A DNA stretch of 64,000 nt from Selaginella tamariscina (taxonomy: Eukaryota > Streptophyta > Lycopodiopsida > Selaginellales > Selaginellaceae). The stretch covers positions 110,017 through 174,016 of the forward strand of contig PUQB01000531.1 in assembly GCA_003024785.1 (NCBI GenBank). The letters run 5' to 3'. The position numbers and the translations under genes were made by a program. Below the pieces are notes generated by a model. The model worked only from the letters and a program-made list of their open reading frames with translations, had not been told where the DNA came from and searched no databases. Of the stretch, positions 35,690 through 58,993 are shown in pieces. Each line of letters opens with the position of its first letter. Position 1 is the first letter of the stretch.

Positions 35690-36685
35690 GAAGAGTAACT
35701 TTGCCAGTGGCTTGGTCAGGAGATCCGCCGGCATTCTTGCTACTGGAGAGTAGGTCTCCGTGAAGTCGAGTCCCTCAATTTGCGAGAAGCCGCGAGCAAC
35801 TAAGCGAGCTCTATACCTGGGTTCAGGAGTGCCGGGTGTGTACTTGCGTTTGAAGATCTACTTCGTCGTCACCACCCGGCGACCCTCTGGTAGGTCTGTG
35901 AGCACCCATGCATGGTTCTTCATGAGGGTCTCATACTCCTCCTGCATGGCGGCTTGCCAGAGCTCAGCCTCCGGCCCGGCAAGTGCCTCACGAATAGTCC
36001 TCGGTTCCGGGAAGTCACGGAACCGATGTTCCACTCGGTAGTACGCATCCTGGTTTTTCCTAGATGCACGCCAGAATGCGGACTGCTCCCCAGCCTCCTT
36101 GGCCTTTTGCGAAGGCCGTGAAACCCGCCCAGATTTCGTCACAACTGGAGGGTCAGGCAGAAGCCGCAATGCGGCATTTGCAACCGGGCTTGGCGAAGTT
36201 CTAGGCGGTATCTGTTGTGCCGGTGGCGGGGTAACAATCGGCTGATCCCCTGTAGCTGTGAAGGAGGGACGTGGTGTTGAAGGCGCCGATCCAAACAGCT
36301 CCTCCTGAGCATCGTTAGGAGCGAGCCCTCCGGCACCGGGATTCCCAAACCCGGCATTTGCTGCAGGCTGTGCCGGCGGCGTGTTTGGTCGTGGTGCACC
36401 TAGCTGAGCCTGTGGCAATGGCCGGATTGGTCTCGGTGCAATCGTATCCTCCTCCTCAAGCAGGCGCACCCAGCCTGGAGCCTGGTCCGGATTAGAATTG
36501 CGCACGAGATGAAAGAGTCTCGTCTCGTCAAAGATCACATCGCGGCTAAAGAGAATAGCCTCGCGATTGAGGCTGTAGAGTCGATGTGCCTTTCGGGATT
36601 CGCTGTAGCCCACCAGGATTGAAACCTCACTGGTTGGATCAAGCTTTTTCCGGCGCGATTTGGAATTTGGGGATATGCCGCGCAT
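35690..36685 (-). pseudogene. Copia integrase tail fused to RT start and RNase H end
   Basis: The 36,685-35,858 frame holds the integrase C-terminal part (DPTSEVSILVGYSESRKAHR, then FDETRLFHL), a Pro-rich linker and the start of RT (WVLTDLPEGRRVVTTK). After a stop the minus strand continues with GTPEPRYRARLVARGFSQIE and TETYSPVAR, which is early RT. It then passes directly into MPADLLTKPLAKLLF, the far C-terminal end of RNase H. The YVDD region and almost all of RNase H are therefore removed by one internal deletion at about 35,735. Confidence 0.85.
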
Positions 36686-37954
36686 CCGAAAACCCTAAGG
36701 TGATCGATGTGCAGCTTGCGCCCACTCCACCTCTCCAGAGGTACACCGTGATCCAAGCTTCGGCTTGGGAGGCGATTACGTAGGTATGCGGCCGTGACCA
36801 CGGCCTCACCCCAGAAGTACACCGGCATCCCGGCATGGATCAACATACAACGGGCCATTTCAACGATGGTTCGATTCATCCGCTCCGCCACACCATTCTG
36901 CTGCGGGGTGTGTGGAGCGGTGAGTTGGCGCTGGATCCCTGCCTTGGCACAATAGCTCTCAAACGCATGCGAGACGTACTCCCCGCCTCCGTCCGATTGA
37001 AGGGTAAGCAGCCTCTCACCCGTCTCTGCCTCTGTAGCCTCCTTGTATTCACAAAGTTCCAGGGCCTCGGACTTTTGTGCCATTAGCTTCAACACCACAT
37101 TTCTCGAGAAGTCATCGATGAAGGTGATGAAGAAGCGCTTGCTCCTGGAGTCTCAATCTGCATAGGCCCACAAATGTCGGAATGAACAAGTTCTAGAACT
37201 TTTGAGCTACGAGTGGTGGAGGCCTGTGGGAAAGGTTTCCGTTGATGCTTTCCAAGAGTACAGGTCTCGCAGAACCCAAGTGAAGCTCCTGAAACTTTCA
37301 TCTTTGGCTGCTGCTGAGAGAGTTTTTGCAGGGCCTCGGCATGAACATGGCCATAGCGGTTATGCCATGTATGCAACGAGCCCGTCTCCGTCACCGCCAG
37401 AGCACTGTCTGGATAGAGCAGCTTCGCCTCGAGCCGATAGAGGTCGCCACTCCTGGAGCCTGTCGCAAGCACCCGGCCATCACTTTCCCGGATAAGCTCA
37501 CAGGTACCCTCTGCTTGAAAACCACAGTGTATCCTACATCTGTGATCTTACTGATTGAGAGCAGGGTTTGGGAGATGGCAGGAACATAGTAGACATTGTG
37601 GAGCTCTCGCCTTTCTCCTCCCGGCATCTCCACTTCCAGCGTTCCAACAGCAAGTATATTTAGCACGGCGTCATTTCCCACGACAACCGTGCGGCCTTCT
37701 GTCAAGCGTTCGAAATTACTGAAGGCTTCCCGCTGTGGAGACATATGAAGAGTGGCCCCAGAGTCCAACCAGATCGAGTGATCCGGAGCTGAAACCTCTC
37801 GGGCCATCAACAGTCGGGCTGGTTTCTGAAAGTCGCGTTTCTTAGATCGACAGTCTCGTTCGATGTGGCCAAGCTTGCCACAGTACGAGCACTTCGGTCT
37901 TTCCTTCCCTTCCCAGGTCTTGGCTAGAGCCTTTCCTTTTTTGGCGATCTCCAT
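36535..37954 (-). pseudogene. Copia zinc knuckle, protease and integrase core
   Basis: Reading right to left: zinc knuckle CSYCGKLGHIERDC (near 37,890), protease SIWLDSGATLHMS (near 37,770), GAG-pre-integrase WHNRYGHVHAEALQKLS (near 37,350) with ETCTLGKHQRKPF, then integrase catalytic blocks LVHSDICGPM (near 37,180), LQSDGGGEY (near 37,000) and PQQNGVAERMNRTIVEMAR (near 36,880). All three catalytic acids are visible. Frame changes occur near 37,840, 37,440 and 37,100. Confidence 0.85.
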
Positions 37955-39300: not shown

Positions 39301-41950
39301 CTGTTGGAGAGCTACTGCTGCTGGGAAGTTGATTTTAACTGTTACAAAGTTTATGTCCTGCATGAACAAAAAGTACGACTGTACTGAGTGGGTTTCAAAA
39401 GTACTATGGTACTTTGGAATTCAGTCAGACTAGATTTTAAAAACAGATAATTTTACTTTATATTGATTATAATGTATAGTTACTAGGAGGAACAATATGC
39501 TTATGATCAGGTGGAAGACCTTTTGATTTAGGGTTTTTTAAGTCATAAACTTACATCTAATGGAGGAAAACCTTTTTATTTAGGGTTTTCAAAGTCATAA
39601 ACTTACATTAATTCACACTAAGAGAGTGGACAATCTGTTAGTGAGGCATTATCATTTTATTAAATGTGAGAATCTCATTTCTTAAATAAAAAATAACAAG
39701 GATCCATTTCACAAATTCAACATTAAAAGTCGATCATAATTTTTTTTTTATATGGAATTATATAATCTGGAATTATAAAGTTACAGATATAAAACTTATT
39801 TCAAAAGAAGAATTTTGACACAAATCAATTTTGAGTACATAAGGGAATTTGGTTTATTATGTTCACAAATAATAAGAAAAAATGATGATTAATGAAGAAT
39901 ATTGTGATAGCATTAAGTAGGGGGAAGTGGTTTTATAACGAGGGTTTATGTAGTCTCCATTGGAAAGTAACGTATCCTTATAAGGATTATTTATAATTGA
40001 ATTTTTTTATTCATCTCTTTAAAGATTTTGTTAAACAAAAATTTGAATTTCGAGAGTTTAAGTGGGCTATAATTTGGAAGATTAGAAGAATCACTGTAGC
40101 AACAAAAAATTTAAAATTTTGAAACATATTTAATATTCCTTAATTATGTCAAAGCTGTAATCCATGCCTCATTCGCTCTAATGGAGTTTAAGAACATATC
40201 CTTGTACAAGAAAATATGAATGCTTATTAAGAAGAATATGTTTTCATACTTGAAAGCTCGACCAGGTAACACGAGATTTACAACCTTATTTTATTTCACT
40301 GTACTCTTTATTGAATTTATAATGGATCAAGGCCTAGTGAAATATGCTATTTGAATTAGGCATCTTGGTATTAAATATTATACGATGGCATTAAAAGACT
40401 TTAGAGTATTGAACATAACATCCCTTAGTAATAAAGGTTGTGCTTTTTCAAAAGTTATATGTAAGTGTGAAAGAGTTTGTGAACATATAGAATATTCACA
40501 CGGTGAAAATATTCAATCAAAGAAGTGTTTATCAGCCATCTTTTACTCATGTGATGGAGTTTTAATAAAGGAGAGGGAAGACATGTGAGTTTTATGTATG
40601 TGCTAATGACTTTTGTGTAGGAGAGTTCCTCTTCTTATTGGGAAACACATCGCAAATATTCTTTTTCAAACTTATGATGTCATCAAAAACACAAGGCTCC
40701 CAGAGGTGAGTGCTTTTAGCGGTTAACATGTAACTGATGCAATGCTTCTTTCTAGAATTTACAAAAATTTAGGAACATGACATGCTCTTTTCTCAATGAC
40801 ACTCCTCTTAATGAATGTTTCTATACTCATCTAGAGCTAAGTCTTCAATGTGGTGAATGATGATGAATGTGACGCCATTGCTTGAGCATGTTTAAGCAAC
40901 AAGCGTTGTTGGGGACGTAAGGCAAATTTGAACTTGCAACCTCTTTCATTTAACATCACATGCACTAGGAACTACCAGGACTAATATTTAAATCAGCCTT
41001 AATAATATAGATTGAAAAACATGTGGTGTGCTAGTTGGTCAACTAGAAGTTCCATCTCAAACATGTTGGTTACCATGTTGTTTGTGCCGACCTCATAGTT
41101 AGTTACAATCTTCTCAGTGGTTTAATCATGGACTCTTATTGAGAGAATGTGTTGGTCACTCTTTTATTTTTCGTTGGTCACCATCTCAGTCAGCACTATA
41201 TAATTTGTCATTGTGGAAATGCTATTGGTCAGGAAGAGACTACTCGCACCTCCATGTGTGATACGTTGGGAGGATGTGTTGGTCCTCATGTTAGTCATGT
41301 TGATTACCACCCTCTGTATTACTCATTTTTAGAATTTGGCTAGTTTAATTTTCTAAACTCAATAATGTGGTGTATGTATCACAATTGTAATTACAATAAA
41401 TTACATTTTCTTTTAAACAACCTTTCTGCTATAGATTCACAATATAAAAAATTTCGTTGTTGCAAGTTTTTAAGAGTTATTTTCTTCAAATCCTTGTTTG
41501 TAGGTGTTAGCCATGTTTTCCTCATGTGTTGTCTTTTACTCCATGTTATTCTAATGCTCCTTCTCGACTTCCTTGCATCCTTCAAGCTTATATGCCAACA
41601 CAATTAATGTGGAATTCAAACATGTATCTTGATGTTCTTCCTTGCCAATTACATTTCCCATTTCTTACTCTTGCTCATTACCTTTGTTATTCTTCATCGT
41701 GTGAATATATTATACATAAACAAGACATATAATATATAATCATATGCCACAGCCTACAACTTTATATATATTCCTTATTTTATTAAAACAAATTTTATAA
41801 AGGAAGTAGAGATTTAATATATTTTCTTATATAAAACAAATTTCTAAGTTCAAATAGTTTTCTAAAATTTGAAGTTAATTTGCTAATCTCACTAAGTAAG
41901 AATTCATAGCATATCTCTCATAGTTAAAAAAATATCTACATTTCCTTTTT
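39301..41950. other. AT-rich intergenic, no firm gene
   Basis: About 70% A+T by eye. A 50-bp word with GATTTAGGGTTTT and AGTCATAAACTTACAT is directly repeated at about 39,520 and 39,575. A 67-codon plus frame at 40,385-40,588 has ordinary composition but no recognisable family. The word GTTGGTCA recurs between 41,030 and 41,240. Confidence 0.5.
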
Positions 41951-41959
41951 GATACAGCT

Positions 41960-42280
41960 TTTGAATAACTCATTTGTAAGTTCAACCACATCTTAAGAGC
42001 TTTGGAAGCTACTTTCTTCAACAAAATAGCAAGTGCAGTGTTATGTTCTGCAACTTGCTCTCTTGGGGCAAGCTCCTTGAGGGCTTTAGCTTGCTTTTCT
42101 AAGTAACCTCCTCGACAATTCCTTGTACTTCACTAGAACATTCTTGTCATGGTGTTGTATGGTATACTTGAGATTTATACGACGACAGGTTGTTGAAGAT
42201 GAATCATAAACACCTTAATAGAGAATTTCATAGTCATCTTGCTTTTGTATAAATGCCATGTTTGTGTCATGGAAAGGAGT
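41960..42280 (-). other. Possible coding relic, unknown family
   Basis: On the minus strand, short frames give readable peptides such as KYTIQHHDKNVLVKYKELSR near 42,150 and LLKKVASKALKMWLNLQ near 42,000. Composition is more gene-like than the surroundings, but stops are frequent and I recognise no family. From 42,281 to 43,260 nothing further is seen, apart from similarity of 42,850-43,300 to the region downstream of the F-box gene (59,400-59,770). Confidence 0.3.
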
Positions 42281-43259
42281 GAGAGACAAGTACATAAAGA
42301 AGATATGATACTCTTACAAGAGGTGGGGTGTTTGAGGATTATTATTGTTTGATGAAATGTTTTAATATATGCGTTCTTTATTTTGAAATTGAGGGCCTTC
42401 GCTACTTCATTTTAAAATCTTAATCTTGCAATCTTTGTATTTCACTTAAAAATCTTAATGTTACAGTCTTTGTATTTCACATTATATGATATGTACTCCT
42501 TGTAATTAGGATTTAACTTCATTATTTATGTAAAGATGATCTTTACATATGTCGGTAAGATCTTGGTTTTTATAAAAATATATATATATTTAGTTTACTT
42601 TAGTTTCTTAAATATTTGTATACATATATACAAATACACACTTAAATACATGTGGTGTACACACTTGGCACATTTTTTTAATTATTCAAATTAATTTATT
42701 AAATTTAATGAATGAAAAATGAATAAGCATGATTATGAATATTCAATATTAAATAAATAAATTTATTAAAAATTATTTGATTTAAAAGCATTTTTAATTT
42801 TACCTTAATATAAAAAGTATATCTTATAAACCCAACAACTATGTGAAAAATAACAATTTAATTATCTGAGGACTAGAGTATACTAGGAATATTGAAGTCT
42901 TAGACTCAAGTATATGTATGCTAAAGATTTTTCATCATTCATATTATGATATTCCTAACTTTATTTCACTATCTATTTATTTGTGAAAGTACACGTTAGT
43001 TTAATATATCTAGAATTGAAACTTTTATGCATTTTGTAAACATATTTAGCATTGACATCATGAAGATCTTCTTTTACATGAATTTTATATTTTTTATGTA
43101 AAATTTTCATTGGTTTTCTTGTGTGAAATATTTGTAGGAATATTCCATGGCAACCAACAATTAAATAATAAAAAAGTACACTTTAAGTCTCACTATTAGT
43201 GAGTAAAATTTATAAGAAATATTAATTAATTAGGAAACAGAAAATGCTATTATCATTTA

Positions 43260-44035
43260 CTTTTAAGGCTTCAAATGAAAAATGCCACCCAATACTCCAT
43301 AAAAGTTACAAAGAGGTAATTCATTTTGAATGGATCTACATGCTCTTGGCAATTTCACTTCTCATAATGACATGTCTAGTCATGATGTATCTTCTATTAT
43401 AACTTAAAACACACCAATGAAGACGAGCATATAAACACCATGTGCTAAGTCTCTTATTATAAGTTATTAAAGTATGAACATATAAAAAACACACAAAGAT
43501 CAAATTTTTAGTTAAACATTTCCCATCAATTAGTATGAGAAGCATATAAAAGTAAATTTGAGAATATTTACACACCAACTTTGTAACCATTACAATTGGT
43601 TTTCATGAAGAAAGTGGTAACGGTTGAATACATTTGAGAGTGACACAAAATAAAAAAGTATTTCCAAAACAGAATTTCCACAACCAACTCAACTATATAT
43701 TGGCTTATCTTTAATAACTAAATACACACCAACTCATTGGACATTGGACGATGCTACAATTCCATACCCACAAAGAGTATATTCCATGGTTTTAGGTTAT
43801 TTTGATTTGTGTAGCACAATAAAAATCCCTTTTAAACTTCAACATCCCATATGTCTGTGTCTTTTACCTTTTTAAACTATGTTGATAGAATGATTCCTAC
43901 CACTCCTTACATTGCTCTAAATAGAGACTCAATATGGAGGAGACTAAGTATAACCATTGTACAAGCCCACAACGAGGGTTACCCTTCTTCCAATAAGGGT
44001 ATAATGTCTTTTGGGGAGCTACACACAATATAAAA
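43260..44035 (-). pseudogene. Truncated F-box gene copy
   Basis: This region is a decayed copy of the F-box gene at 59,771-60,828. The word TAGTCATGATGTATCTTC near 43,376 matches 60,063, and the GACTAAGTATAACCA word near 43,945 matches 60,743. The middle part is deleted (about 775 bp here against about 1,060 bp there). On the minus strand SYNRRYIMTRHVI corresponds to GYNGRYIMTRHII. The F-box helix itself is barely recognisable. Confidence 0.65.
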
Positions 44036-44513
44036 CATTTTTCGTTACCTATTTAACTCATAATCAATTATATTATCAAACCAAGTGTAAGTTATTTATT
44101 TATTTTAATACAGAAATAGCAATAAAATTATTTTTTTACTAATTATTATTTAGTTATTACAGAGACGCTGTAAGATTCTTTATGTCAGTATGCATTCTAA
44201 AGAACGACCGGCTTACTTGAGAGAAAGTCCTAGTTCAATCTATGTATATGTATATCTCCCTTCGCTTTGAGTACAATTTATTTGGAAGTCTTATTGGAAG
44301 CCATTGAACACCATATATATTGAATTAGAATTTAATATATTCTTATCATTTCCAATATGTTTAATCATAATTCAATGTACTTCTATATGATTTGTGTAGG
44401 CGGTCGAGCTTGAAAAAAAGTGAATCTTAACTTAGCAACCAGACAAGATTGCTGAATCAACAAGCCCATAGAAGCTGAACACATTTACTAGGGTGGAGGA
44501 AGTAAGGATGGTA
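44036..44513. other. AT-rich intergenic, no gene seen
   Basis: No open frame, repeat or RNA gene was recognised between the F-box relic and the target-site duplication of the MULE. Confidence 0.55.
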
Positions 44514-44522
44514 TTAAGGATA
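44514..44522 (+). other. 9-bp target-site duplication, left
   Basis: TTAAGGATA, identical to 52,890-52,898. The identity does not extend outwards or inwards, so the duplication is exactly 9 bp. Confidence 0.9.
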
Positions 44523-44640
44523 GGGTCTCGGCGAAAAGGAGGCTCCGGCTCAGGAGGCTTCATATTATTCTAGTATATTCGCGGATATTCTAGGGTTATT
44601 CTAGCATATTCTAGAATATATAAGTTTTTTAATATGCTGA
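44523..44640. repeat. MULE left terminal inverted repeat
   Basis: Begins GGGTCTCGGCGAAAAGGAGG. The first about 40 bases pair imperfectly with the right end, with solid matches at GGAGGCT and CAGGAGGC. An AT-rich subterminal block follows (44,568-44,616) in which TTC and G.A triplets alternate at five-base steps. Confidence 0.8.
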
Positions 44641-44696
44641 CTGGCTTAATATATGCCGACTGGCTTAATAAAGCATTAACCTAAACCCTAAACCAT

Positions 44697-47600
44697 TTAT
44701 CCTTGTAGCACCGGTGGGTCATGAACTCTGCTGCAATTCACCAGCAAACGGTGGACCTCCATCTCACTGAGCGATCGCCTTTGTAGAAAATATGTGACGT
44801 TCGGGTTCAAGCCAAGCACACGGCTATAGACGAAGTACATGTGTACACATGGGCTCCAACTTTTGCTCTTCTGAAATGTAGAACAACTGCATGAAGGATA
44901 AGTATTAATAGTCACCTTTGCAGAGTCATTTCCTGCCGACACAACGAAAGCCTCCTTCCGTCCTCTAGCTGTCACTTCAACATTTCGCACACAACCTAAA
45001 AACGTCTTGGCCTTGCGGAAATTCTTCTCTTGTTCCTTAGACATTTTTGTTGGAGTCCGACCATACGTCCTTCGAAAGGTGGAATTGTTGTAGATCCAGC
45101 TCCACGTGGTGGCGATGGTGTTTTGTCCTTCTGACCCTCATCTACTCTTCCTGCCATCCCCTGTAAACCTTCCAGAACAAAGCCTGCATCCTGTAGTTCT
45201 CTGACCTCCTCACTTGTCAGCTTCGTTTCCTTGAGCACAGGCCAAACCGTTGGTGGTGTTGGAATTCGTGACCGAAGAATTTTGCCGTTTGGCCGCGTGA
45301 AACACCCTGAATCTTTTGGGCAGAACCACATCATCTGTTGTACATACTCCTCATTCCCCAAGGCATCAATGTACATTCGTTTTCCATAGAATCCTGGTGC
45401 TGGCACTCTGCTTGGATAACCGATTGGTTTTCCACACAGAGCAGTTCCTTCCTGATTCATCCCCAAACACTTAACCTTACTGGATGCTCCGATTCGTCTG
45501 ATGGCCCACTCTGTTTGAGCAATCTCTCTCTCCGAAACCTCTTCGAACCTTAACCTCTTTCTCCTGTTGTTTTGGACCACCCGCTCTGTGTACTCTACAT
45601 CATGTCTGTGTGAACGTCGAGCATCAGACTGTTCTGTTCCTGTGACTGTTCTCCTAACAGTTTGCACTCGAACGTTAGTGGTACTCGTGAACTCCGGGCT
45701 GGTCAAGTGTTCCTCGCCTTCCACCAGATTGATAATTGTTGATGGAGATACACTTTTCCCCTCAGAGAGTTTGCGTTGCACTCGTTTCAACAGAGTTTCC
45801 TTCGAAGGCCCTGACCCTGTATACCTCCCTTCTATTGCCGCTTTCACCTTCGCACTCTGCATAACTGCATCGGTGAGGTCTAACATTGTCGCCTCCAGCA
45901 GTGGTACTCTTTTGGCCAATCTTGCTCTTCTTGCTCTCGCGTGAATCACTTCAGCATTGTTTGTAGTTGGAACGCTCGCGAGTCCTTCTTCTGTCATGTC
46001 TCCCAGTTCCGCCATGGAGATGTGGTCCTCATGCCTGATCCACCAAGACAGCCATGTCTTCAAAGCTCGAATGTTTGACGCTCGTCCTTCCCAAAAAGAC
46101 TCGAGAATTGCCAGTTGTTCTTTCTTAGATTGTTCATTCAGTGCTGCAGGCCAGGCACGAGCAAGCTTCATGTGTTCTTCGCGATGTTCTTCTGCGATCC
46201 ATTTCTTTGTCACCTGACGCACGGATTGCATAAAGTGAAACAGACAGCTTCTTTCCCTCCCTTTCATCTTTGCTCCGTTGTTGAATACTTGGCGCAAGGC
46301 TATCCATATCGCTCCAGCCTCATCCGACATGAAACCAGCAAAGTTGACATTCTCCAAACCCTGCTTCTTACAAACCTCTAGCATTGTGTTCAAGAACTTC
46401 AGCACTGCAACATTATCTTCGCGGCACATATCTGCGTAAGCTATAGTCACCATGGATCTGACACTGCAAGAGAGCGTTAGATAACGAAGATTAGAAAGTG
46501 TTATGAAGAGTTTTACAACTTACAATGGGTCATAAAGGTGTATTCCAATTGTCGCCCAGTCTGGTATGCGGTGCGTGTGGTCCAGAACAACCCATTGATC
46601 ATGAAGGTCTCCTCCACTTTGACACCTTCTGATGTACTCAACTCCTGAACCCGGTCCCTCAACTGTCATTTTGAAGATCAGAGGCTGCTCCTCAGCACCA
46701 TGCAGTTCCATCCCTGGAACATGTATGACGTGAATGAAAGGTATTGGCAGCTTTGTCTTCAGCTCCAGAAGACCCTCGTAACCCTCTCTAAAGTGTGTCT
46801 CCTTCTGTCTTGATTGTGTAATCCAGTCCCGAGTCCTAAAGAAAAGGTCACGTCAGTGTGTAGAGATCTAAAAAAATACCTTCGATGGTTTGTTAGAGGT
46901 TCAAGTTTTGAGAGTAAACCAGTGTACGAGACTTCTCCTTCTTCCTTGAAAAGTTCTTCAAAGATGAGCTCACGCGCGGCTTGAAACTCAATCACTCGTT
47001 GATTGGTTCGCGGACTGCTCTTTACCACGTTGCTGACACTAGATCTGGCTCGCTGAACGTTTGAAGCTGACACTGAGGGGCTGACTGGATGCTGATGAAC
47101 ACCTCTGTGAATGAACAACCTTGTAAAAGAAATGTCGTCTGGCAGAATGTAGTACACATAAGCCGGACAAGTGTGCACCAGCAATGGCTCCTCTCCACAA
47201 TGCTTACATTTTATGCCTATTACTTTGCCTGTCTCAGTTGTCTTTGCCTTCTCCACAGCACCCTTGAAGTGACATTCATTTGCTTTCTTCTCAAAAGCCA
47301 AGTAGGGGCAGGTAGGATTGATGCATTGGAGATGTCCGACACATGAACTTCGACTGACTCGCGCCGGAACATGCCAGTGTGTTGTGCTCGGGTGTGTCCA
47401 ATGGTAGCAGCCATCCTTGCGATTCATCCCCGAGTACTTCTCTGTGCTTTCTGTCTTAGGGGGAAGTTCGAAAATGACATTTCCATTGTATATCTGCGGT
47501 AGTTCAGAGACTCGTTTAACTTCAGACGAACCAATGAGATCCTTCCCTATCCTACATTTGTCTGCTCTTAGAAGACACACCAGCATGGATTCCTCACGCT

Positions 47601-47859
47601 CCTCTGTCCGCAACCTGAACAACGGGCCCTTTGCCGGGCACAATGTGTAAAAGACAAACTGGTTTGATGCATTGCCTTCTGGTAACAACTCCACATCTTC
47701 TCCAGAACTCGCAGAAACTGACATCAATTGAACCACATGTATACTGAACCAACAAGGAATGTTGAAAGCAATGTGAAGATCATGTTCAAACACAAAAGCA
47801 TTTCCATCTTCATCGACTGGGAAATCTTTGTCAATGCCTTCATAGGTAACTCTGGCCAT
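44697..47859 (-). CDS. MULE transposase with zinc module, DDE core and SWIM finger (one frameshift)
   Basis: Translation starts at the ATG at 47,859. Exon 1 (47,859-46,880) encodes about 326 residues. They include a WRKY/GCM-like zinc module with Cys173, Cys179, Cys184, Cys218 and Cys221 and the HQH pair at 255-257. GT-AG introns at 46,836-46,879 (44 bp) and 46,464-46,523 (60 bp) join it to the catalytic core: VVLDHTHRIPDW, GFMSDEAGAIW, CLFHFMQSVRQ and NNAEVIHARARRA, which supply D, D, the C/H pair and E of Mutator transposases. A second Cys cluster (CLGMNQEGTALC to WFCPKDSGCF) follows. The SWIM finger CSCSTFQKSKSWSPCVHMYF (44,890-44,830) lies in another frame. A one-base indel near 45,115-45,125, at a run of A, is the only break. 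It may be a mutation, an error or programmed frameshifting. Confidence 0.85.
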
Positions 47860-49511
47860 GACAACGCAAGGAGAAAGCTCGGTGGTTTAGGAAAGCAAAG
47901 CAAAAGATTAAACACACTTTCTCTTACCAAAAAAAAATTACAATCGTTAAAATAAACGTGAATACACGTTTGTATATAATTAATTCTATGCTGCCCAGCA
48001 CAGTGTTCTTAATGATGTCCTCTCTAGTATCACCGATTTAATTTAATTTCTACCTTTTATGATTTGAAATATCTTCACATTTACCAATTATTCACATATT
48101 TTAAAATAAACCCTAAATATTAATGTCACATTTATTCCGTAGGGTTCACTGTTTTCATTGCGGCTAGGGTTTTTTGGTAGATAGGGTTTACTGTTTCCAT
48201 TGCGGCTAGGGTTCTTTCAATCTCAGATCTGTTTCCACTGCGGCAGATCCAGAGGGTTTCTTCAATCTCAGATCTCAGAGTTACGGTTTCCACTGCGGCG
48301 CCATCCATTTCGACTCGATTCGTGCAGCGCCCAAGTATAACAATGGAGATTTCTGTGCCGATTTAGATTGTCGGCACCATCCTGCTCAGCCGGCGCCACA
48401 AGGTATGTGTAATTTCTGTATTTTATGATTTGCGCTCAAAGTATTTCTTTTTCCAGAGATATAGGGTCTTCTTATTTGTGCCGACTGAGAGCAACGGCAC
48501 CATCCTGGTTCAGTCGGCAAACACAAGGTATCGTCGATTTATTTATTTTTTCCTTGCGGCTCAAGTATACGTGTCACAATGTTTTTTTTTCAGAGTTAAT
48601 GGGTCTTTCCATTTGTGCCGACTGAGAGTGACGGCACCATCCTGGTTCAGTCGGCAAAAACAAGGTATTTTCGATTTGTTTTTTTTCTTTCTGGCTCAAG
48701 TATTCGTATCACAAGGTTTTTTTTTCAGAGTTAATGGGTCTTCCCATTTGTGCCGACTGAGAGTGACGGCACCATCCTAGTTCAGTCGGCAGCCACAAGG
48801 TATGTTCGATTTATTTTTTTGCTTTCTGGATCATGTATTCGTATCACATTGTTTTTTTTCAGAGTTAATGTGTCTTCTCATTTGTGCCGACTGAGTGACG
48901 GCACCATCCTTCTTCAGTCGGCAGCCACAAGGTATTTTGAATTTGTTTATATTTTGCTTTGCGGCTCAAGTAATACAATGTTTTTTTTTCAGAGTTAAGT
49001 GTCTTCCCATTTTGTGCCGACTGAGAGTGACGGCACCATCCTTCTTCAGTCGGCAGCCACAAGGTATTTTGAATTTGTTTATATTTTGCTCTGCGGCTCA
49101 AGTATCCGTATAACAATGTTTTTTTTCAGAGTTATAGTGTCTTCCCATTTGTGCCGACTGAGAGTGACGGCACCATCCTTCTTCAGTCGGCAGCCACAAG
49201 GTATTTTGAATTAGTTTTTTTTTCTTTGCGTCTCAAGTATTTCTTTTAAAACAGTTAATGGGTCTTCCCATTTGTGCCGTCTGAGAGGGACGGCACCATC
49301 CTATCTCAGTCGGCACCATTATCTCTTCTGTGCCGTCTGAGAGTCGGCACAACTATCTCAGTCGGCAGGTTTTTCTTCTACATCTCTCTGCCGACTGAGA
49401 GGGTCGGCATCTAGCTTGAGTCGGCAGCCACAAGGTTAGTCATCTTTGTTTGTTTTTTTATTTTGACTCCTCATCAATTGACTTGTGTGTTTACTTTCCA
49501 GAGTTCCCAAA
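47860..49511. promoter_or_regulatory. Divergent promoter region of the MULE
   Basis: This 1.65-kb stretch separates the two start codons. From 48,140 to 48,300 a word with CTAGGGTTT and GTTTCCATTGCGGC is repeated three or four times. Then follows the tandem exon-like array (48,350-49,440). Both genes must be transcribed outward from here. No clear TATA box stands out on either side. Confidence 0.6.
48350..49440 (+). repeat. Tandem array of exon-like units with flanking splice signals
   Basis: Seven or more units of 123-137 bp carry the word GTGCCGACTGAGAG or close variants at about 48,478, 48,615, 48,750, 48,884, 49,014, 49,151 and 49,274. A diverged first copy is near 48,359, and two or three shortened copies follow 49,320. 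Each unit has a poly-T tract ending in CAG, then about 75 bases, then AAG|GTAT. It thus looks like a small exon with its own acceptor and donor. Within each, TGCCGACTGA and TCAGTCGGCA can pair as a hairpin. The last unit ends in AAG|GTTAGT and is followed by an acceptor (TTTCCAG, 49,500) just before the start codon. Confidence 0.85.
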
Positions 49512-52500
49512 ATGGTGAGAGCTTCAAAACGTCTACTAGAGACTGCGCCTGATGAAGAGCCACGGGAAGAGAAGAGGATATCGAAGCAGAAGCGAGGCAA
49601 GAGAGGAGAACCATCTAATGTACCAAAGGAGGATCCTCCAGTGACTCAGTCTGGAGTAGTAGCAGTTGAGCAAGAACAGCCTCCACCAACAATCACAGAT
49701 TTCCCGGAGAGCTCGTCGCAGTTGCCTCCTTCATCCGCTGAGGTTGCAGTCCTGAACGAGCAAGTGCAGATGACAGAGGCAGCTGAAGCTAGCGAGGACG
49801 ACTTGGAGGAGGCAGTCAGCAAAAAGAGAGGCCGCGGGAAAGCTGATTCAAAAGGCAAGAAGGCGAAGAGCGATAAGGAGCCGAAGGAGTTATACAGCAT
49901 ACCGGCGAGCCTGCATTTGGAGAGCTCAGCAAACCTGCTCGACAAAATTACTATCAAGGGACTTGGTGATCCTCCTGATGTGCCCATCTGCAGAATACAT
50001 TCCAACGAGGTGGTTCGACGAGTGAACCCAGGGGACTTGGACAGGCTGGTGTCATCGTTGAAGAAGGCTGGTTATCTACGCAACACGGCCATGTTCATTC
50101 TGTCCATCGGAGATCGACTCACTGCTGAGGAGCTATCGGAGCTGTCGAAGGACACGATTCAGTACGAGCAGCACCGGTCTTTCGAGCAAGCTCTTACTCA
50201 GCCGGAGTACAAACAGTGGGCTTCAAGGCTCTCAAACAGGAAGTTTAGTTGCTGGGACGGGAACCATAGGCTACAGGCTTTGCAGAAGCTGTACCGAGAG
50301 GATGCAGAGGACAACCAGCGATGGGCTATTCGCGTTCGATCGAGTTTCATCTCCACGGAGAACCTCGACATTCTTCAACTGGTTTCGATGTTCCAATCGA
50401 TTAACATGTGAGTATTTTTTTCTTTTTGTTAAGAGTTTAGACTTACAGTTTCGTTGAACAGATCTTCAGCAACATCTGTGGAAACAACGCTACCACATAT
50501 TCTCCTGCTGTAAAGGCGGTCTGCACTAGTACAGGGAACTCAGAAAATCCTCGAGTCACTCACGGAGGTTGATCGTCTTGAGGTGCGGAAGTGGAAGGAG
50601 AGTTGCATCAGGAAAGACGGCTTGGCATCCTCTTCCGAACCTGATCTGCGCAAAGATCCTTTTCAAGGTAACCTCCGATTTAATTTATAGGAAAGAAATT
50701 TTTAACTTTGTTCTATGTGCAGAACGAGATCGACGATGATCTCGACAGAGCAGTCACCAGTGCTAAGGGCAATCCACAGGTTGAGGTGAACCTGAAGCAG
50801 CTAGTGTACAAGAAGCATGACAAGCGTATGCACAAGTTCCTCTCCATCATAGACCCAGACTTGGGGAGGAGTGGTTCCAGAAGGTGAAACATCTCTCATA
50901 AGCAGTGTCGCTGGATGGGCATTGAGAAGCTGTATGCGATGTCAAAGGGCGAAGATTCCAAACATGCTGCGACTCCGATTGAACAAGCTCACCCGTCTCG
51001 AATCCAAGGCAGAACAACAGACACTTGGGCTACCGGGCATGCAGGACAAAGAGTGGATCAAGTGGTTCACCTTGGACTTATATTGGAAGGCTGTGCGCGA
51101 GGAAGCCATTCAGATCCTTAAGGGGTTGCGAGAGGATGGTGAAGAAGTTGGAACGGATGTCGACTTCATGAGCTGGTTTGACGAGATGAGAATTCGGAGC
51201 AAGTGCCTGGTCTTTCAGCCCTTCCATGACTGCATCGGTTCACTTATTCGATGGAGCCGAATGAGTTTCTGGAGCGTGAGGATCTGCGCGTCGGATGATA
51301 TGGAGGTAAGCTTTCAATCCAGCATTGCTACTGTCTGACTTTGTGTTACAGGTTCATACTGGCGAAGCAAATGACACCGTCCCATACGATGAAGCTGTGG
51401 ACAGATCATACAAGCGAGCCTCACATGTGGTCGAAGAGCAGAGGAGCTCTAACACCGTTCGAACGGGAGCATGTTCCATTCTGGCTCGACTGTCCGTCGC
51501 AACAGCCACCAGCTTGGGAGAGCACACTATTCGACATGCACGCCAATGATCTACCAGCGATTGTTTGGGAGCCGGAGAAGTAGAGGCTATCAAGAAGAGC
51601 AGATGAAGAAGACGGTGCGGAAGACAACTACACCTGCAAAGGGATCGGGAGCGGGACCAAGCTCTTCTACAGCACCTCCACGGATTCGACTTTACAATCA
51701 ATGAGGTACAGCCACTTGTAGCTAGTTTGGACATCAAGGACGACCTGATGACCTTCATCCCGACCCTGGCTGCATCCCGTGGATCCTACGACCTAGCTGT
51801 GTGCGACATGGAGGAGATGAGCAGGTCTTTCTTCGAGGGTGCTTCCAGACAGAGGTGTACACCAAGCTCCGAGAACAGGTTGACAGACTACATACGGTGA
51901 GTCACAAACGTTGTTCCAGGAAGTGGTAGGTGAATACGGCTTCAACCTCATCATCCTCGACTTGCCCAATGAGCTTGTATATGGAGGTGCTAGCATCAAC
52001 AAGGACATTGTGCAGCTAGATCCGGTGAAGTTTGAGGAGGCCTTGCAGTTCAGTGGAATGCACTTGGCAGCGAGTGGTTTCATGGTCGTCTTCGCGAGTT
52101 TCCTTCTGTTTCGGCGGTGATTCAGGCGGCTGCAGTAATCAACTTGGAGGTTGCAGGGACTTACAGCGTCTACCGTGCAAGGCTGGGGATACCGTGACAA
52201 AATTAAGGTAAGCTAGCTATTCAAGTTCAAGTTTAACTTGGTCTATGTGGCAGGATAACTTGTTAGTTCTCTTTGGTGCTGCAAAGCTCTGAGAAGAAGT
52301 CGAAGAGGCCAAACCCTCTGGCGTTGACGAACACGATCTCGTCGCGACACTCGACCGTTATCAGGAGGCTTGGTAAGGAAGTACTTTGCTATGTTTATCC
52401 TAATGGAAGATTGTGCAGGATTATGATTCAACCGAAGAGTGTTTCGACTCATGCAGCTTTTGATCGAGCGTCTCAGTAGACCTGGCGACCTAGTCTGGGA

Positions 52501-52693
52501 TATTGGTTCCGGAACCGGGTCATCATTGTTAGCTGCCGTCGAGCTCGGAAGGAATATTATAGGCGAGAAGAGTTTCGAACTCTCTAGGTTGGCAACAAAC
52601 AAGCTTGCAGAGACATTAGACCAGAAGAGTTACCTACTCAAAACCTCCACGTCCAAGCGTAACTGGTGGTTCGAGAACTGCAGCTTTACTTGA
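49512..52693 (+). pseudogene. ParB-like domain plus beta-class DNA amino-methyltransferase, transposon cargo
   Basis: The start ATG at 49,512 follows a good acceptor at 49,500. The first exon (to 50,407, about 299 residues) has a basic nuclear-type leader with KKRGRGK. A ParB/Srx-like domain follows, with CRIHSNEVVRRVNPGDLDRL and WDGNHRLQALQKL (GNHR takes the place of the GxxR motif). An intron (50,408-50,461) leads to an exon with an in-frame TAA at 50,511-50,513. More GT-AG introns are seen near 50,668-50,722, 51,306-51,351 and 52,208-52,249. Downstream pieces include LIILDLPNELVYGG (motif IV position, near 51,950) and QPKSV (motif X). Then comes GDLVWDIGSGTGSSLLAA (motif I, near 52,485). 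Motif IV before motif I is the beta-class order of N6-adenine/N4-cytosine methyltransferases. At least three frame changes and the stop make this copy probably inactive. Confidence 0.75.
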
Positions 52694-52774
52694 TGAGAAG
52701 AAACTTTAGTATATATTGAGTAATAAATTAAGCTAATATAAAAAAAAATAAAAAAATAACAGTTTTAATAGAAT

Positions 52775-52889
52775 TTTTTTGCCGACTAAGGCCAATACTG
52801 CGCAGAAAGAATATTCCAAAATATTCTAGAATATTCTTGAATATTCGAGCAGGCCTCCTGGGCCCCAAGCCTCCAAAATGGCGGCACTC
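52775..52889. repeat. MULE right terminal inverted repeat
   Basis: Read inward (minus strand) it begins GAGTGCCGCCATTTTGGAGG and continues with GGCCCAGGAGGC. The subterminal part at 52,809-52,846 has eight triplets alternating GAA/TTC at exact five-base steps, with one mismatch (AAA). The word GCCGACTAAGG at its inner edge resembles the hairpin word of the internal array. Confidence 0.8.
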
Positions 52890-52898
52890 TTAAGGATA
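52890..52898 (+). other. 9-bp target-site duplication, right
   Basis: TTAAGGATA, identical to 44,514-44,522. Confidence 0.9.
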
Positions 52899-54280
52899 TT
52901 ACCAATGTGGTTTTCCACTCTCTAGTTTACAACAATCCCTTCTTAGAGTGCAACTTCTTTATGCATCAAGGAATGACTATGGACAATTGCATTGGGAACT
53001 TTAAAGTCCTGCCTGCATCCATGCTCAGCATGGTTGTGCTCTCCATGTTTATGATAAATTCATCGTCCATGCAGTCAGTAGTTTAATTATATTAATGAAA
53101 AAATTAGATGAATAATATTCTTGAAATTCACACATTCATGGTATATACACATGGATACATATCCATACATATGTCTCCTATGTATGTATATATGCTTGCT
53201 TAACTTCAACAATTCATGATGTACATATATTGTTGCAAAAAGCAATTCTCTCCCCTGCTAGCTCTCTCACACACTCTCTCAAGTTTAGACTTGGGTATCA
53301 CATGGAATTTTCTTTCTTACATATTTATACATACAAAGACGTGCATGGAATTTATATGTTATTCTTTATTAACAAGAACTAGAATTTGGATATTCATAAG
53401 TGTGATTGCTCTCCTGTTAGCAGCCATAGTCAAAATGAAGCACAAAGAACACACTGAAAAGAGTGATCATATTCTTGCTAGTCCTGCAATATGCACTTCT
53501 TGGCATGGCTAAGGAGTAGCAAACAAAGTATATTGGTTTTTTCATGAATAGACCCTTGACACATTCCATAACTTGGGGGTCGGTTTAGGACTAACTAACC
53601 TTGGTGCTAGGAGTTTCTTAAGCAGTGCACTAATCAAATGTGTTAACAAGGCTATCCCAACTTGGTTACAAAATAATGTTAACATGGGCACTATAATTAC
53701 TTTTATTGACTTCTAATGGGAAATATGGGTCTTAAAATATATAACTATATATATCTGGGGATTACCTAGATTGAGAAAATTTTATATCGGGACCATGTGT
53801 AATGGATCTTTAAAGATCACAAAAGTTCCTTATTAATACAGTTCACTATAAAAGTCGTGTTAAAGTCTCAAGAAAATGTATGTCATATTTAATGGGTATA
53901 ATTAAAATTAAGTGTGTATTACGTTATTAATAAATAAATCTCTAAGTGCAATAGTTAATTGTTTAATGTTCTATATAAATAAGAATTATTATATTAATCA
54001 TTTAAACATTTGGTTTTTACATACATGTTTGTTAATGCCAAGCAATGAATCAAAGTATTAAATCTTATTACCAAAAAAATTTAAAGAATAAAATTAAACA
54101 ATCACATACTTTTTGTCATAATAAAAATAATAATGATGTATGTATGTACAGTTAACATCAAGATATGTAATATTAATAATCTCAGTATTTATCACTTTAC
54201 TTTTTTATAATATTGTAGGTAGTTATGTTCACAACATTGACAAATTATAGAATACATTAATATAAATTCATGCACACACT
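52899..54280. other. AT-rich intergenic, no firm gene
   Basis: A 98-codon plus frame at 53,216-53,512 contains a hydrophobic stretch (WIFISVIALLLAAIVKM) but no family match and no convincing start context. The rest shows nothing. Confidence 0.5.
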
Positions 54281-54482
54281 TGTAAGATACTGTTATTAGG
54301 TAACGTACCGTATATACACATGTGTATATACACACATGTGTAGTGACACATGGGTGGTGATCTGGCCCCATGTCAGTGCCACGTGTCGCATGTGTGCCAC
54401 GTGGCAGGAGGCCTCCTGTATATAAGCAGGGTTTTTGTAAACTAATATATCAGACATTTCATTTAATATATCTGCTTTTTCA
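54281..54482 (+). repeat. Gypsy-2 5' LTR
   Basis: U3 contains a 20-bp palindrome TATATACACATGTGTATATA (near 54,310) and two ACGTG-core words, one of them the full palindromic G-box TGCCACGTGGCA (54,395-54,406). These precede a TATATAAG promoter word at about 54,419. The G-boxes suggest bZIP/bHLH-type regulation. Confidence 0.9.
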
Positions 54483-54544
54483 TTGGTGGAGAAGTTGGGT
54501 TCCTTTCTTCCGCATTTTCTTTTTTCTTGTTTCCATGACATGAT

Positions 54545-55610
54545 GACATGGAGACGGCTTTTAGCATTATTGCTACTGCTTTGATGCACAAACTAAGTTG
54601 TTGGAGCACTTCGTTGAGGGTCCGTCCTCCTCTTCCCTGTCTGAGCCTCATGCCGGGGGATCTGCTTCTAGTACTCCTTCATCTTCTTCACAAGGCCAAT
54701 TCGAGGTTCGACCCGATCTTTTTGTGGTGATCCGGGAGATGATGTATACCACTGGTTTGATCATTTCCAAGTCATGTTCGTTACCATGGTTGGGATGAGG
54801 CCCGTGCTCTCAGAGAATTCCCTACATGTTTGGAAGGCCCTGCGCTCAAGTGGTATAATGGATTGGCTGCGGAGATTCAAGCCAATAGTAGGTTAACGGA
54901 ATGTCTCAAAACGTACGTTTGGCAAAGTTGAGGATTCAGATGATGCTTTCAACAACTGCATGCGATACGACAACATCCTGGTGAGTCTGTATGCGGTTAG
55001 TATTAGGTTTTGGGGATTTAGTTCGGCGTGCATATCCTAACATGCCTGAGCCTATTAAGCTCGGTATGTTATGGCCAACTATGCGACCCGAACTTGTTCA
55101 ATTCGTTCGGGCTCTTCGTCCTACCACATTGGAGGAAGCTTTTGCACTAGCTCAATGTTTTGAGTTGGTGCCTGGTGAGGGCCGTGTTCCCTTGGGTTAC
55201 CTGCTCCTCTTGTTCAGCGTGCTGATCCAATGGAGGTTGATGCTGCTGCATATGTGCCCGCACGGCAAGCCTTTCGTGGTCGACCTCGGGGCCCACCCCG
55301 TGGACCACCTCCACGAAATCGTCCTGCACCTGCTCCAGTACCTGCCCGTGGTGGTCAAAATCCACGGATTCATGACAGGAGGAATCGGAACAATGCAAGT
55401 CGACCCAATCAAGTTCATTGTTGGGCCTGTTGGGCGCCTGGACATACTTGGCGGGCATGCGATGTGTATCCTGATTGGCGTCCACCACATCCAGGCTGGC
55501 GACCATATGTTCTGGATGGTGTGCCTGTGGCGGCCATTATGTCTGATGATGAGCTTCCAGATGATGAAGCCTCTCTTGCAGATGGATCTGTTGCGGAAAA
55601 CTAGTAATCG
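54545..55610 (+). pseudogene. Gypsy-2 gag
   Basis: The capsid part reads through frame changes, ending with YPNMPEPIKLGMLWPTMRPE and LRPTTLEEAFALAQCFE (55,035-55,165, quoted in part). In another frame (55,230-55,604) a Pro/Arg-rich linker leads to a zinc knuckle, CWACWAPGHTWRAC (near 55,435), and an acidic tail DDELPDDEASLADG. The frame change near 55,195 is the main lesion. Confidence 0.75.
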
Positions 55611-55689
55611 TACGGGCGACGGAGGGATCCCGTGCGATGGAGACTTCACCTCCATGCTTTTCCGCTATGCATATCAGGGTTTGCAAGTT

Positions 55690-55863
55690 CCACCAGATCA
55701 TCCAGTTTTCACATTTTCTGCACGAATGAATGATCTTTCAGTCACAGTGCTTGTGGATACAGGATCCAGTATGTCTTCCATAACTTCTTCTCTAGCGCGT
55801 CGGTGCTCGTTACCCTTAAGACGTGCAGATAAGGTCTTGCACATTTTATATGGTAATGGGTAG
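55690..55863 (+). pseudogene. Gypsy-2 protease
   Basis: In the 54,991-55,863 frame, FTFSARMNDLSVTVLVDTGS leads into SMSSITSSLARRCSLPL. VDTGSS is the active-site motif of retroviral-type aspartic proteases. The later part of the domain is in other frames up to about 56,000 (DIILGCELVEAVERY). Confidence 0.7.
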
Positions 55864-56199
55864 TCTCGTGCAGTATCACAGTACACCACTTCAACTACGG
55901 CTGGTTTTGGGTGACAATCGTAAGTTTCCCTAGGGTGTTCCTTTCCCAGGTCTTTGACATTATTCTGGGATGTGAACTGGTTGAAGCAGTCGAAAGGTAT
56001 GTGTGATTTTTCACTCTCTCCTCCTGTATTACGCTTGCAGTCTGTGTCTCTGCAATCTGTTCCTTTACGTCCAGAGAAGCTTGTTGTTGTTTGTATCACA
56101 CATACAGCTCCTTTGATTCCAGTCTTGGGATGGTGTTCATCTAACAGGTTCAAAATGTCGGATCCGTCACCGGAGTATTGAGCACAATGCATCGAACAA

Positions 56200-57590
56200 C
56201 TTAAGCAGCAGTAATGCAAGTTTGTTCAAATTTGATCTGTCCCAAGGTGCATGTGTGAAGACTCGACACTGTATACCCACAGGCAATGCAAAGCCTTTCA
56301 AAGTCCCCAGTTCGACGCAGGTCACCAAAAGAGTTATCAGCCATGCGAACAGCTGTTACAGATATGATCGGTAAGCGGGTGTGTCGTCCATCACGGAGTC
56401 CATGGGCATGTGAATCTCATTTGGTTTCCAAGCCTGATGGATCTTTACGATTTTGGTGTGGATTACCGACCTCTCACGATGTTACCATCAAAGATGTCTA
56501 TCCACTTCCGAACTCTGCCGATCTATTAAGATCGTTTGGGTCAGAGTCGTGGTTTACTAAGTTGGATTTGGCATCAGGATATTGGCAGGTTCCTATGGCT
56601 GAGGAGGATATTCCAAAAACGGCCTTCCGGACACCATTTTGGTCTTTACGAGTTTTTGGTCATGCCTTTTGGATTGACTTCAGCTTTTGCCACCTTTCAA
56701 CGCATGATGGATGAGCTTCTTTCCGATATGCCGATATCACTGCCGATTTTATCGACGATGTGCTCATTCATGGGTCTGGTTCTTGGGAGGATCACATTCG
56801 TGATGTACGGCGCGTTCTTGATCGATTTCGAGAAGTTGGCCTGAAGTTGAAACTTGAAAAGTGTGTGTTTGGTTCGACCGACACCACTTACTTGGGTTAC
56901 CGTATATCTCGAGAGGGTTTACAGGTGGATCCAATGAAGTTGCGAGCTGTTCGAGAGTTCCCTCGTCCCCGTACAGTACAGGAAGTCCAGCGTTTCTTGG
57001 GCACGGTGCAGTACTTGGGTCGATTCATCGATCATCTCACTGATCGAACTGCCCCTCTTCGGGAGTTAGTTCGTCCACAGGTATCTTTCAGGTGGACTCG
57101 CAGGTGTCAGCAGGCATTTGACCAGTTAAAAGAGTTCCTGACAACTCCACCATTGCTTCAATACCCAGATTTTACTCGTCCGTTCATTTTACGAGTAGAT
57201 GCCTCAGATGTTGGTATTGGTGGTGTATTGATGCAAACTGATGCTGTGGATTCTTCAATTCGACACCCGGTGGCTTACATTAGTCGAGTACTCACGCCGG
57301 CTGAGCGGAATTATTCCACTACTGAAAAAGAATGCCTTGCTGCTGTTTGGGGTTTTGAACGACTTCATGCCTACTTACATGGGAGTGAAACACTTTTGGA
57401 GTGTGATCATGCTGCTGTCACTTCCTTATTAAAACGGAAGAATTTAGTGGGTCGCGTAGCCAGATGGGCATTACGTCTCCAGGTATATAACTTTAAGGTG
57501 GTGCACAGGCCTGGGCGAACAATGGTGGATGCGGATGCACTTTCTCGAGCACCCCTCTCCGATTCCACTTTGCCTGCTCATGCAGTAGCT
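56200..57590 (+). pseudogene. Gypsy-2 reverse transcriptase and RNase H
   Basis: Early RT (56,400-56,690) shows SHLVSKPDGSLRF, WFTKLDLASGYWQVPM and KTAFRTPFW, then after a frame shift LYEFLVMPFGLTSAFATFQR. The catalytic block is ADFIDDVLIHGSG (near 56,748). After a further frame change a 395-codon frame (from 56,760) gives LKLEKCVFGSTDTTYLGYRI, the connection domain, and RNase H with FILRVDASDVGIGGVLM, RNYSTTEKECLAAVWGFERL and a final VDADALSRAP. Late RT and RNase H are fully open. Confidence 0.88.
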
Positions 57591-58993
57591 GCAGCATTCG
57601 GTTTGATACAAGCCCCTCAGGTATTCGATGCCGACTTACCATCCTTGGAACAGTGGCAGGATGCTCAAAAACATGAACCATGGACGAGGCAATTACGCGA
57701 TGCGTTTGCAATCCGTCTTCCGAACCTCGGTTTCGACAATATCATGCTCAGTTTCGACTTCAGGATGGTTTATTGTATTTTATTGGGACAAATCCAGAGG
57801 ACAGATGGCGTTTGGCTGTACCCTCTACATATGTTCCACACCTTCTTCGAGCATATCATGATTCACCTATTGTTGGAGGTCATCTTGGTCACCAACGAGT
57901 GTTGGAGAAGCTGCGCCGATCATTTTATTGGCCAGCATGCGTGGTGATGTGATCAGGTATATTCAAAGTTGTCCCACTTGTCAAACTCGGAATTCCTCTA
58001 CGACTCGGGCCATGGGTGTTGGAATCCATCAATGTCTCTCGCCCTTTTGAGTTAATTGCAGTGGATTTAATGGGACCTTTTCCACGTTCTTCTCAAGGTA
58101 ACCAGTACATCATTGTTGTATCCGATTATTTAACTCGATGGGTGGAGGTTGGTGCTCTTCCGGATGCAACTGCCATGTCAACAGCTTTGTTTCTGTTCGA
58201 TAATGTGGTTTTGCAGCATTCTTGTCCAGAGCGGATGTTATCAGACAATGGCCCCGCTTTCATTGCAGAGGTATTCCGAGTGTTGTGTGAGAGGTTAGGG
58301 GTAAAACATTCATTTGCCTCTCCGTATCATCCACAAACTGATGGTTTGGTGGAGCGATTGAATCGGACCTTCAAGGGTATGATCTCGAAGTATGTGAACT
58401 TCAATCACACGGACTGGGATTGGTATTTGCGATGTTTGAGATTTGCTTATGTAACAGGCATTCAGAGTTCGATTGGTATCTCTCCATTCAAGGCATTGTA
58501 TGGATATGATCCTAAGTTGCCTAGTGAATTGGGGTTATCATCGAATCTGCCACGTGCCGAGGATGCAAAGATGTGGGCTCGACATTTGGATGCTGTTTTG
58601 CCTCTTCTGCGTGCAGAGTCTGCTGAACATCTTGGTCGAGCTCAAATGCGGCAGCAATCTTCTTACAATGCACGACATCAAATTCCACCAGATTTTGCTG
58701 ACGGTGACTTAGTCCTGGTACGTTTTCCCAAGCTGACTGCACCTGGGCTTGCAACTGGTTTATTACATAAGTGGCTTGGTCCCTACCGAGTACTCCGAAA
58801 GGTTGGTCCTCAGGTATATCAAGTACAGTTGGTGGGATCTCATGAGGTTGAGATAGTTCACGTGGTTCGAATGAAACGGTTTGTCGTTCGAGACTCGTTG
58901 AGTACATTTGGTCATACCTTAGATGGCCCAGCTCACACGGATCCAGGACCATCAGATCCATCACCATCTACACAGCCGCAGAGGGGAGGATAA
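57590..58993 (+). CDS. Gypsy-2 integrase
   Basis: The zinc module starts in the 57,680-57,952 frame (HLGHQRVLEKLRRSFYWPAC) and is completed after a stop by SCPTCQTRN (57,970). The 58,016-58,993 frame of 325 codons contains the core: ELIAVDLMGPFPRSSQGNQY (first Asp), MLSDNGPAFIAEVF (second Asp), and SPYHPQTDGLVERLNRTFKG with the catalytic Glu. The C-terminal domain with HKWLGPYRVLRKVGPQVYQV follows. A Pro/Ser/Thr-rich tail ends just before the polypurine tract. Only one stop, near 57,948, separates the two parts. Confidence 0.88.

Follow-up and report, generated by a model that had tools for sequence, protein, structure and literature searches.

A young two-gene Mutator-like transposon family in Selaginella tamariscina with a methyltransferase-like cargo gene and a candidate self-recognition motif

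The element and its two genes

Here we describe a transposable element in a stretch of 64,000 base pairs (bp) from Selaginella tamariscina (GenBank assembly GCA_003024785.1, contig PUQB01000531.1, positions 110,017 to 174,016 of the forward strand; C873:110017-174016 in our contig numbering), hereafter referred to as the window. The element belongs to a recent and real two-gene family of Mutator-like elements (MULEs), and the second gene is a real, selected cargo gene of bacterial type; the observations that carry this are the divergent genes, shared ends, target-site duplications, near-identical copies, open frames of both genes, and purifying selection. The genome searched comprised 300,702,823 bases in 1,391 contigs, and a DNA search with the element as query gave 18 scored places (the best 18 of 1,409 first-look candidates, and a lower bound), to which the copy counts given below refer.

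The window copy occupies positions 44523-52889 (8,367 bp), and other copies with both ends readable measure 7,855-8,615 bp. According to both the sequence itself and our scripts, it is flanked by the exact 9-bp target-site duplication TTAAGGATA (44514-44522 on the left, 52890-52898 on the right); the interval 44514-52898 given in an earlier note, which was made from the sequence alone, is the element plus its two duplications. The exact duplication reported in that note is confirmed at the window copy and extends to the family: among the 16 copies in this genome with both flanks readable (C626 and C522 lack a right flank and stand outside the count), it is exact in 10, where an exact 9-bp match by chance is expected at 3.8e-6 per copy. 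It becomes exact in C753 and C793 once one end is moved by one base, matches at eight of nine positions in C336 and C630, and is not clear in C344 (three mismatches) and C582 (seven mismatches). The 10 exact and two shifted copies carry the duplication of about 9 bp (8-11) by which MULEs are recognized. The left terminal region (44523-44563, plus strand; GGAGGC..CAGGAGGC) forms an imperfect inverted repeat with the right terminal region (52850-52889, minus strand). The GC-rich, imperfectly inverted ends of the earlier description are detectable but weak: for the 60-bp ends of C630, the best local alignment scores 14 against a shuffled mean of 7.1, and 1 in 2,000 shuffles is equally good. Terminal repeats are a loose mark of MULEs, for which degenerate ends or none are also allowed, and the weak repeat of C630 lies within this range; MULE ends have been described as ranging from terminal inverted repeats to none or degenerate ones (PMC6446971). 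An Rfam scan of positions 40000-56000 gave no match at the gathering threshold.

The transposase gene lies on the minus strand (44697-47859) in three exons, with introns at 46836-46879 and 46464-46523. It encodes 1,019 amino acids (aa) where open, as it is in 6 of the 18 copies, and has a stop after 919 aa in the window copy; six copies (C1063, C626, C753, C344, C996, and C630) show zero substitutions relative to C466 at the compared transposase codons. When the protein was compared by eye with the motifs of MULE transposases, LDHT..., MSDEAGAI, CLFH, and TTNNAEVIHAR could be recognized (MULE-type D/D/C-H/E). The earlier assignment as a DDE/SWIM transposase on one strand keeps its strand and, by eye, its probable MULE-type motifs, while the SWIM match falls below the Pfam cut-off (E 0.0036 for an exon piece, 0.04 for the whole protein). 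Pfam MULE gave no match with the transposase protein or its pieces, and a comparison of the 1,019-aa protein with approximately 5.8 billion proteins returned none at E<=0.001, in a search that requires shared 5-residue words and does not show absence.

Divergently oriented, on the plus strand, is the cargo gene (49512-52709), an arrangement that the earlier note had pointed out and that recurs in 18 of 18 scored copies. It consists of six exons, and its introns (50408-50461, 50668-50722, 51306-51351, 52208-52253, and 52373-52418) are all bounded by GT..AG. Introns are 44-60 bp long in the window copy and in the open copies, a short length that fits Selaginella. Where open, the cargo encodes 992 aa, and the gene is intact, as the earlier note had asked of other copies, in 3 of the 18 (C466, C336, and C630); in C804 and C486 it was not readable with exact junction strings. 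The window copy itself proved not to keep the gene intact: its frame is closed by a stop codon after 315 aa and is further disrupted by frameshifts. Some frameshifts in the copies may be assembly errors, the assembly being of the PacBio/Falcon type (PMC8558194).

With exons joined in intact copies, residues 898-953 of the cargo protein match Pfam N6_N4_Mtase (E 1.1e-8, 35.8 bits against a cut-off of 26.7). The S-adenosylmethionine (SAM)-binding part of this match (52490-52580, plus strand) contains motif I, DIGSGTG, placed as in beta-class amino-methyltransferases, with motif I after motif X; among the 27 loci whose sequence reaches this position, 25 keep it without change, C344 has one replacement, and C529 has a gap. 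When the cargo protein was aligned globally to a profile of six phage methyltransferases, the sequence DLPN (51959-51970, plus strand) stood opposite their DPPY, DLPY, DIPY, or DVPY at motif IV and DIGSGTG opposite motif I, giving the beta-class order in which motif IV precedes motif I; being global, this alignment is obliged to run from end to end, its profile of six sequences is thin, and a local alignment covers the motif I part alone. Among solved structures, the motif I part was matched at E 0.002. What was claimed earlier as a set of beta-class amino-methyltransferase motifs is thus upheld by the Pfam match, motif I, and the motif order, but not by motif IV, where DLPN departs from the catalytic pattern [DNS]PP[YFW].

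Exon 1 contains a region resembling the ParB superfamily (49914-50407, plus strand), in which the box WDGNHRLQAL (50253-50282) was recognized by eye. Once an internal stretch had been taken out, this edited piece gave marginal matches to DndB (E 0.058) and ddrB-ParB (E 0.19), and with the same stretch removed it matched PADLOC PDC-M38A at E 2.2e-5; the uncut region had no Pfam match. DndB is a protein of the ParB superfamily (PMC10853773). ParB_N gave no match in the genome, though the same search was positive in 11 of 14 control genomes, and it is in this reduced form, as a box and marginal matches to an edited piece, that the ParB-like domain of the earlier note persists. Searches of the region against phages and plasmids returned one chance-level match each, neither annotated as ParB, those against solved structures returned nothing useful, and an AlphaFold prediction from the single sequence, with no alignment, was uninformative (predicted local distance difference test score 32). 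Neither the 992-aa cargo protein nor its residues 640-992 found a relative at E<=0.001 among approximately 5.8 billion proteins, in searches that score the best 8,000 candidates, need shared 5-residue words, and do not show absence; pattern matches to the cargo numbered 39 in viral_contigs and 133 in genome_contigs, with zero confirmed.

Copies in the genome and selection on the genes

The earlier note had asked whether other copies share both genes and both ends, and this is what the genome search found. Because both genes recur in all 18 scored copies (by alignment alone for the cargo of C804 and C486) and both ends in 16, we regard the element as a MULE with a true cargo. The 18 copies differ pairwise by 0.1-2.0%, and one of them, C466, combines two open genes with an exact duplication. 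C344 and C996 agree in their right-side sequence, ATTCTGTTA, and may represent a single insertion in two haplotypes, in which case independent insertions are slightly fewer; haplotypes were possibly assembled apart here and in the pairs with equal scores (C572/C632 and C894/C113).

Protein searches extended the comparison to the best 46 of 3,247 candidates for the cargo and the best 45 of 3,362 for the transposase; both searches give the best-scored places, and absence from either set of matches is uninformative. When six transposase loci outside the cargo set were sampled, cargo exon 1 was found as expected in four, and the other two probes lie within the tandem array described below and are uninformative on the cargo. 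Copies without the methyltransferase-like gene, which according to the earlier note would reduce the two genes to mere neighbors, were not seen among the scored copies and these best-scored places (46 cargo, 45 transposase). A more distant copy, C529 (7-10% diverged), has transposase, array, and cargo through to the right end, but in the stretch analyzed the leftmost 1,720 bases, which would hold the transposase's C-terminal half, were not found. C1293 (approximately 1% diverged in the cargo, and frameshifted) likewise has transposase, array, and cargo through to the right end, its left end lying beyond the stretch analyzed.

Selection on the cargo was assessed through Nei-Gojobori counts with C630 as the reference copy. 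In C529, synonymous divergence (dS) is 0.104 and nonsynonymous divergence (dN) 0.036, a ratio of 0.34, and the ratios for C486, C656, and C804 are 0.28, 0.30, and 0.25; replacement changes are depleted with P values of 1.2e-9 (C529), 1.5e-5 (C486), 7.8e-5 (C656), and 4.8e-4 (C804). A dN/dS of approximately 0.3 in the more diverged copies therefore identifies the cargo as a gene under purifying selection, and the true constraint is probably stronger than measured, because broken copies also count changes that followed loss of function. One close copy, C922, departs from this with a ratio of 1.16, but on five changes, too few to be informative. For the transposase, dN/dS is 0.38 in C529 over 508 codons (P 0.004, with approximate site numbers) and 0.47 in C1293, the latter from 16 changes.

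A repeated motif and the role of the cargo protein

Between the two genes lies a tandem array of approximately 135-bp units (48351-49437, plus strand), most of which contain an inverted pair, TGCCGACTGA..TCAGTCGGCA. Of the 21 occurrences of the word TGCCGACT in the whole window, 19 lie within the element (with bounds taken as 44514-52880) and two in the remaining 55,653 bases; the expected number for the whole window is 1.07, and 0 of 100 window shuffles reach 21. One occurrence lies near each end (44654-44661 and 52780-52787, both on the plus strand), and 17 of the 19 lie in the array, where inverted pairs (TGCCGACTGA...TCAGTCGGCA) are the usual arrangement. The shorter word GCCGACT is found 5-11 times per strand across the 18 copies, so array length varies; it is present near both ends of every copy except C942, which lacks the left one, and C522, which is cut off before the right one (17 of 18 at either end). 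C529 has also kept the motif, both within its array and close to its right end, though in fewer copies. Up to the start codon of the cargo, the array units resemble mini exon/intron modules (TTTTCAG/AGTT ... CACAAG/GTAT, with slashes at the borders), and the RNA of individual units folds into hairpins (z -2.0 to -2.9 for five units). With these splice-site-like 3' and 5' borders, the array upstream of the cargo looks like an amplified mini-exon of a 5' untranslated region.

In its layout, TGCCGACT resembles the arrays of the VANDAL/VANC system and is a candidate self-recognition site. On balance we lean slightly towards a reading in which the cargo of this two-gene Mutator-like family, a DNA transposon family with recent activity, is a self-recognizing accessory protein, one that by analogy would bind its own element and probably counteract silencing. 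Such a protein would recognize the element through the repeated TGCCGACT, as inverted pairs in the array and single sites near the ends, by means of its ParB-like region, its middle region, or both, and would carry the SAM-binding methyltransferase-like domain to these sites. The likeliest benefit would be that the shared promoter region and the ends are kept open against host silencing; alternatively, these parts might become better substrates for the transposase, with VANC proteins on VANDAL elements as the model. A more specific proposal, which we put forward tentatively and with somewhat less than even confidence, is that the MULE brings along a sequence-specific epigenetic system of its own, in which a protein of the ParB/methyltransferase type would bind the element-specific inverted array and then either write N6-methyladenine (6mA) or N4-methylcytosine (4mC) or, as a retuned DLPN enzyme, use SAM-bound DNA binding, and the family would stay unsilenced.

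Several points weigh against a self-recognizing accessory protein. The ParB-like assignment is weak, and the array could instead act in the transcript, because its units fold as hairpins and carry splice-site-like borders, or the motif could bind the transposase. Mean divergence among the 18 copies is 0.62% in the cargo half against 0.34% in the transposase half, and the pairwise distances of the two halves correlate moderately (r 0.51); the cargo appears to move along with the transposase yet to be less conserved. Finally, motif IV reads DLPN in 28 of 28 loci, without the aromatic residue of DPPY/DLPY. Position two of this motif is variable among the phage proteins, whereas loss of the aromatic residue is an unusual change, and methylation has possibly been lost here, because the rotifer enzyme N4CMT becomes inactive when its SPPY is changed to APPA, at two residues (PMC8885841). 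Given DLPN in all of these loci, we label the domain methyltransferase-like and regard a methyltransferase as unproven. That DLPN means a dead enzyme was weighed and not concluded, since phage relatives have DLPY and the last residue alone differs; whether the domain actively methylates DNA (at N6-adenine or N4-cytosine) or acts through binding alone is, from its motifs, nearly an even question that tips a little towards binding.

The strongest rival, a real possibility that we consider less probable than self-recognition, is that the cargo is enzymatically active as an amino-methyltransferase and labels new copies of the element with 6mA or 4mC for identity or protection. The near-invariance of motif I speaks for it, two of the phage relatives, which have DLPY in motif IV, carry an adenine methyltransferase annotation, and the same proposal has been made for algal proteins (PMC12477816); the constant DLPN, lacking the aromatic residue, speaks against it. 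It is rather unlikely that the TGCCGACT sites are subterminal and internal repeats bound by the transposase, with the cargo acting elsewhere, for example in replication or on the chromatin of any DNA. Transposase-binding subterminal repeats occur in other DNA transposons, and the presence of GCCGACT near each end of nearly every copy would suit this explanation, but 17 of the 19 sites in the window copy lie in the array just upstream of the cargo and not at the ends. Much less probable still is that the cargo has lost catalysis and persists as a remnant or passenger of no use to the element: it is open in few copies and broken in the window copy, as this would have it, but purifying selection is evident with P down to 1.2e-9, the frames of other copies are few substitutions away from open ones, and some of the frameshifts may, as inferred above, stem from the assembly. 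That the two genes are chance neighbors, one side alone being mobile, has nothing in its favor and is refuted for these copies by the same unit with the same ends and differing 9-bp duplications at different sites, shared by 18 copies.

Known systems and significance

The closest published arrangement is found in the brown alga Ectocarpus, where the Sola1 transposon Sola1-1_Ec32 carries a gene for ParB plus a 4mC/6mA methyltransferase opposite its transposase, and the same paper cites further examples from DNA transposons of green and red algae (PMC12477816). The algal genes and the present cargo share the opposite-strand position, a length of approximately 1,000 aa (1,104 in the alga, 992 here), transmission by a DNA transposon, and the combination of a ParB-like part (marginal here) with an N4C/N6A-type methyltransferase part; this likeness is one of arrangement and domains, not of sequence comparison. 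In contrast, the algal element is a 21.5-kb member of the Sola1 superfamily in a brown alga, and the present one is an 8.3-kb MULE in a land plant, with a motif array. VANDAL MULEs of Arabidopsis likewise have weak ends, an extra element-encoded protein, and a short motif that is dense in noncoding tandem repeats of variable number; VANC proteins bind such motifs within their own elements (PMC5735166). Unlike the cargo protein, VANC is not described there as a methyltransferase, and the VANC21 motifs share one orientation whereas ours form inverted pairs; the likeness drawn here comes from the layout of the motif array alone.

Other transposons are known to encode DNA methyltransferases, namely the DNMT retrotransposons of dinoflagellates and Klebsormidium and the Dam-like DIRS elements, but these are retrotransposons, and the DNMTs are C5-cytosine enzymes of eukaryotic origin (PMC5890265). 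Bdelloid rotifer N4CMT is a bacterial-type amino-methyltransferase in a eukaryote, as the cargo product may be; it differs in being encoded by a host gene, in having a chromodomain and the motif SPPY, and in helping to silence transposons (PMC8885841). The phage amino-methyltransferases share the motif IV region (DLPY/DIPY/DVPY/DPPY in phages) and the motif I region, whereas the six compared are 229-269 aa long and belong to prokaryotic viruses. A eukaryote-wide survey of MULEs has no word starting with "methyl" in its main text (PMC6446971), methyltransferases are likewise absent from the extracted text of a 2026 review on gene capture by plant transposons (PMC13317346), and a ParB-methyltransferase accessory gene in a MULE or a land plant was not found in our searches of the open-licence PMC literature. 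The novelty suggested in the earlier note consequently narrows: the kind of gene is already published for algal DNA transposons, and what appears to be new, as far as searched, is the superfamily and the host, together with the candidate recognition array.

The window also contains other features outside the element. Approximately 2 kb to its right are the genes of a Ty3-type long terminal repeat (LTR) retrotransposon (54985-58993, plus strand; aspartyl protease, reverse transcriptase, RNase H, and integrase). A reverse transcriptase fragment of another LTR element, typed by eye, lies at 18809-19906 (plus strand), and integrase parts of what by eye is apparently a copia-type element lie at 35858-37152 (minus strand). 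Two open frames without a Pfam match at 0.01 were also noted: one of 300 aa (6491-7393, plus strand) and one of 325 aa with a P-loop, GNPGIGKT (30407-31384, plus strand), the latter reminiscent of crinkler/CRN-type proteins.

Few cases are known of transposon accessory proteins that mark or protect their own DNA, and in our searches the ParB-methyltransferase type was otherwise found only in algal elements. As a young multi-copy family with open genes, selection, and a candidate site, the element described here makes self-binding or self-modification by a transposon-encoded, bacterial-type enzyme directly testable.

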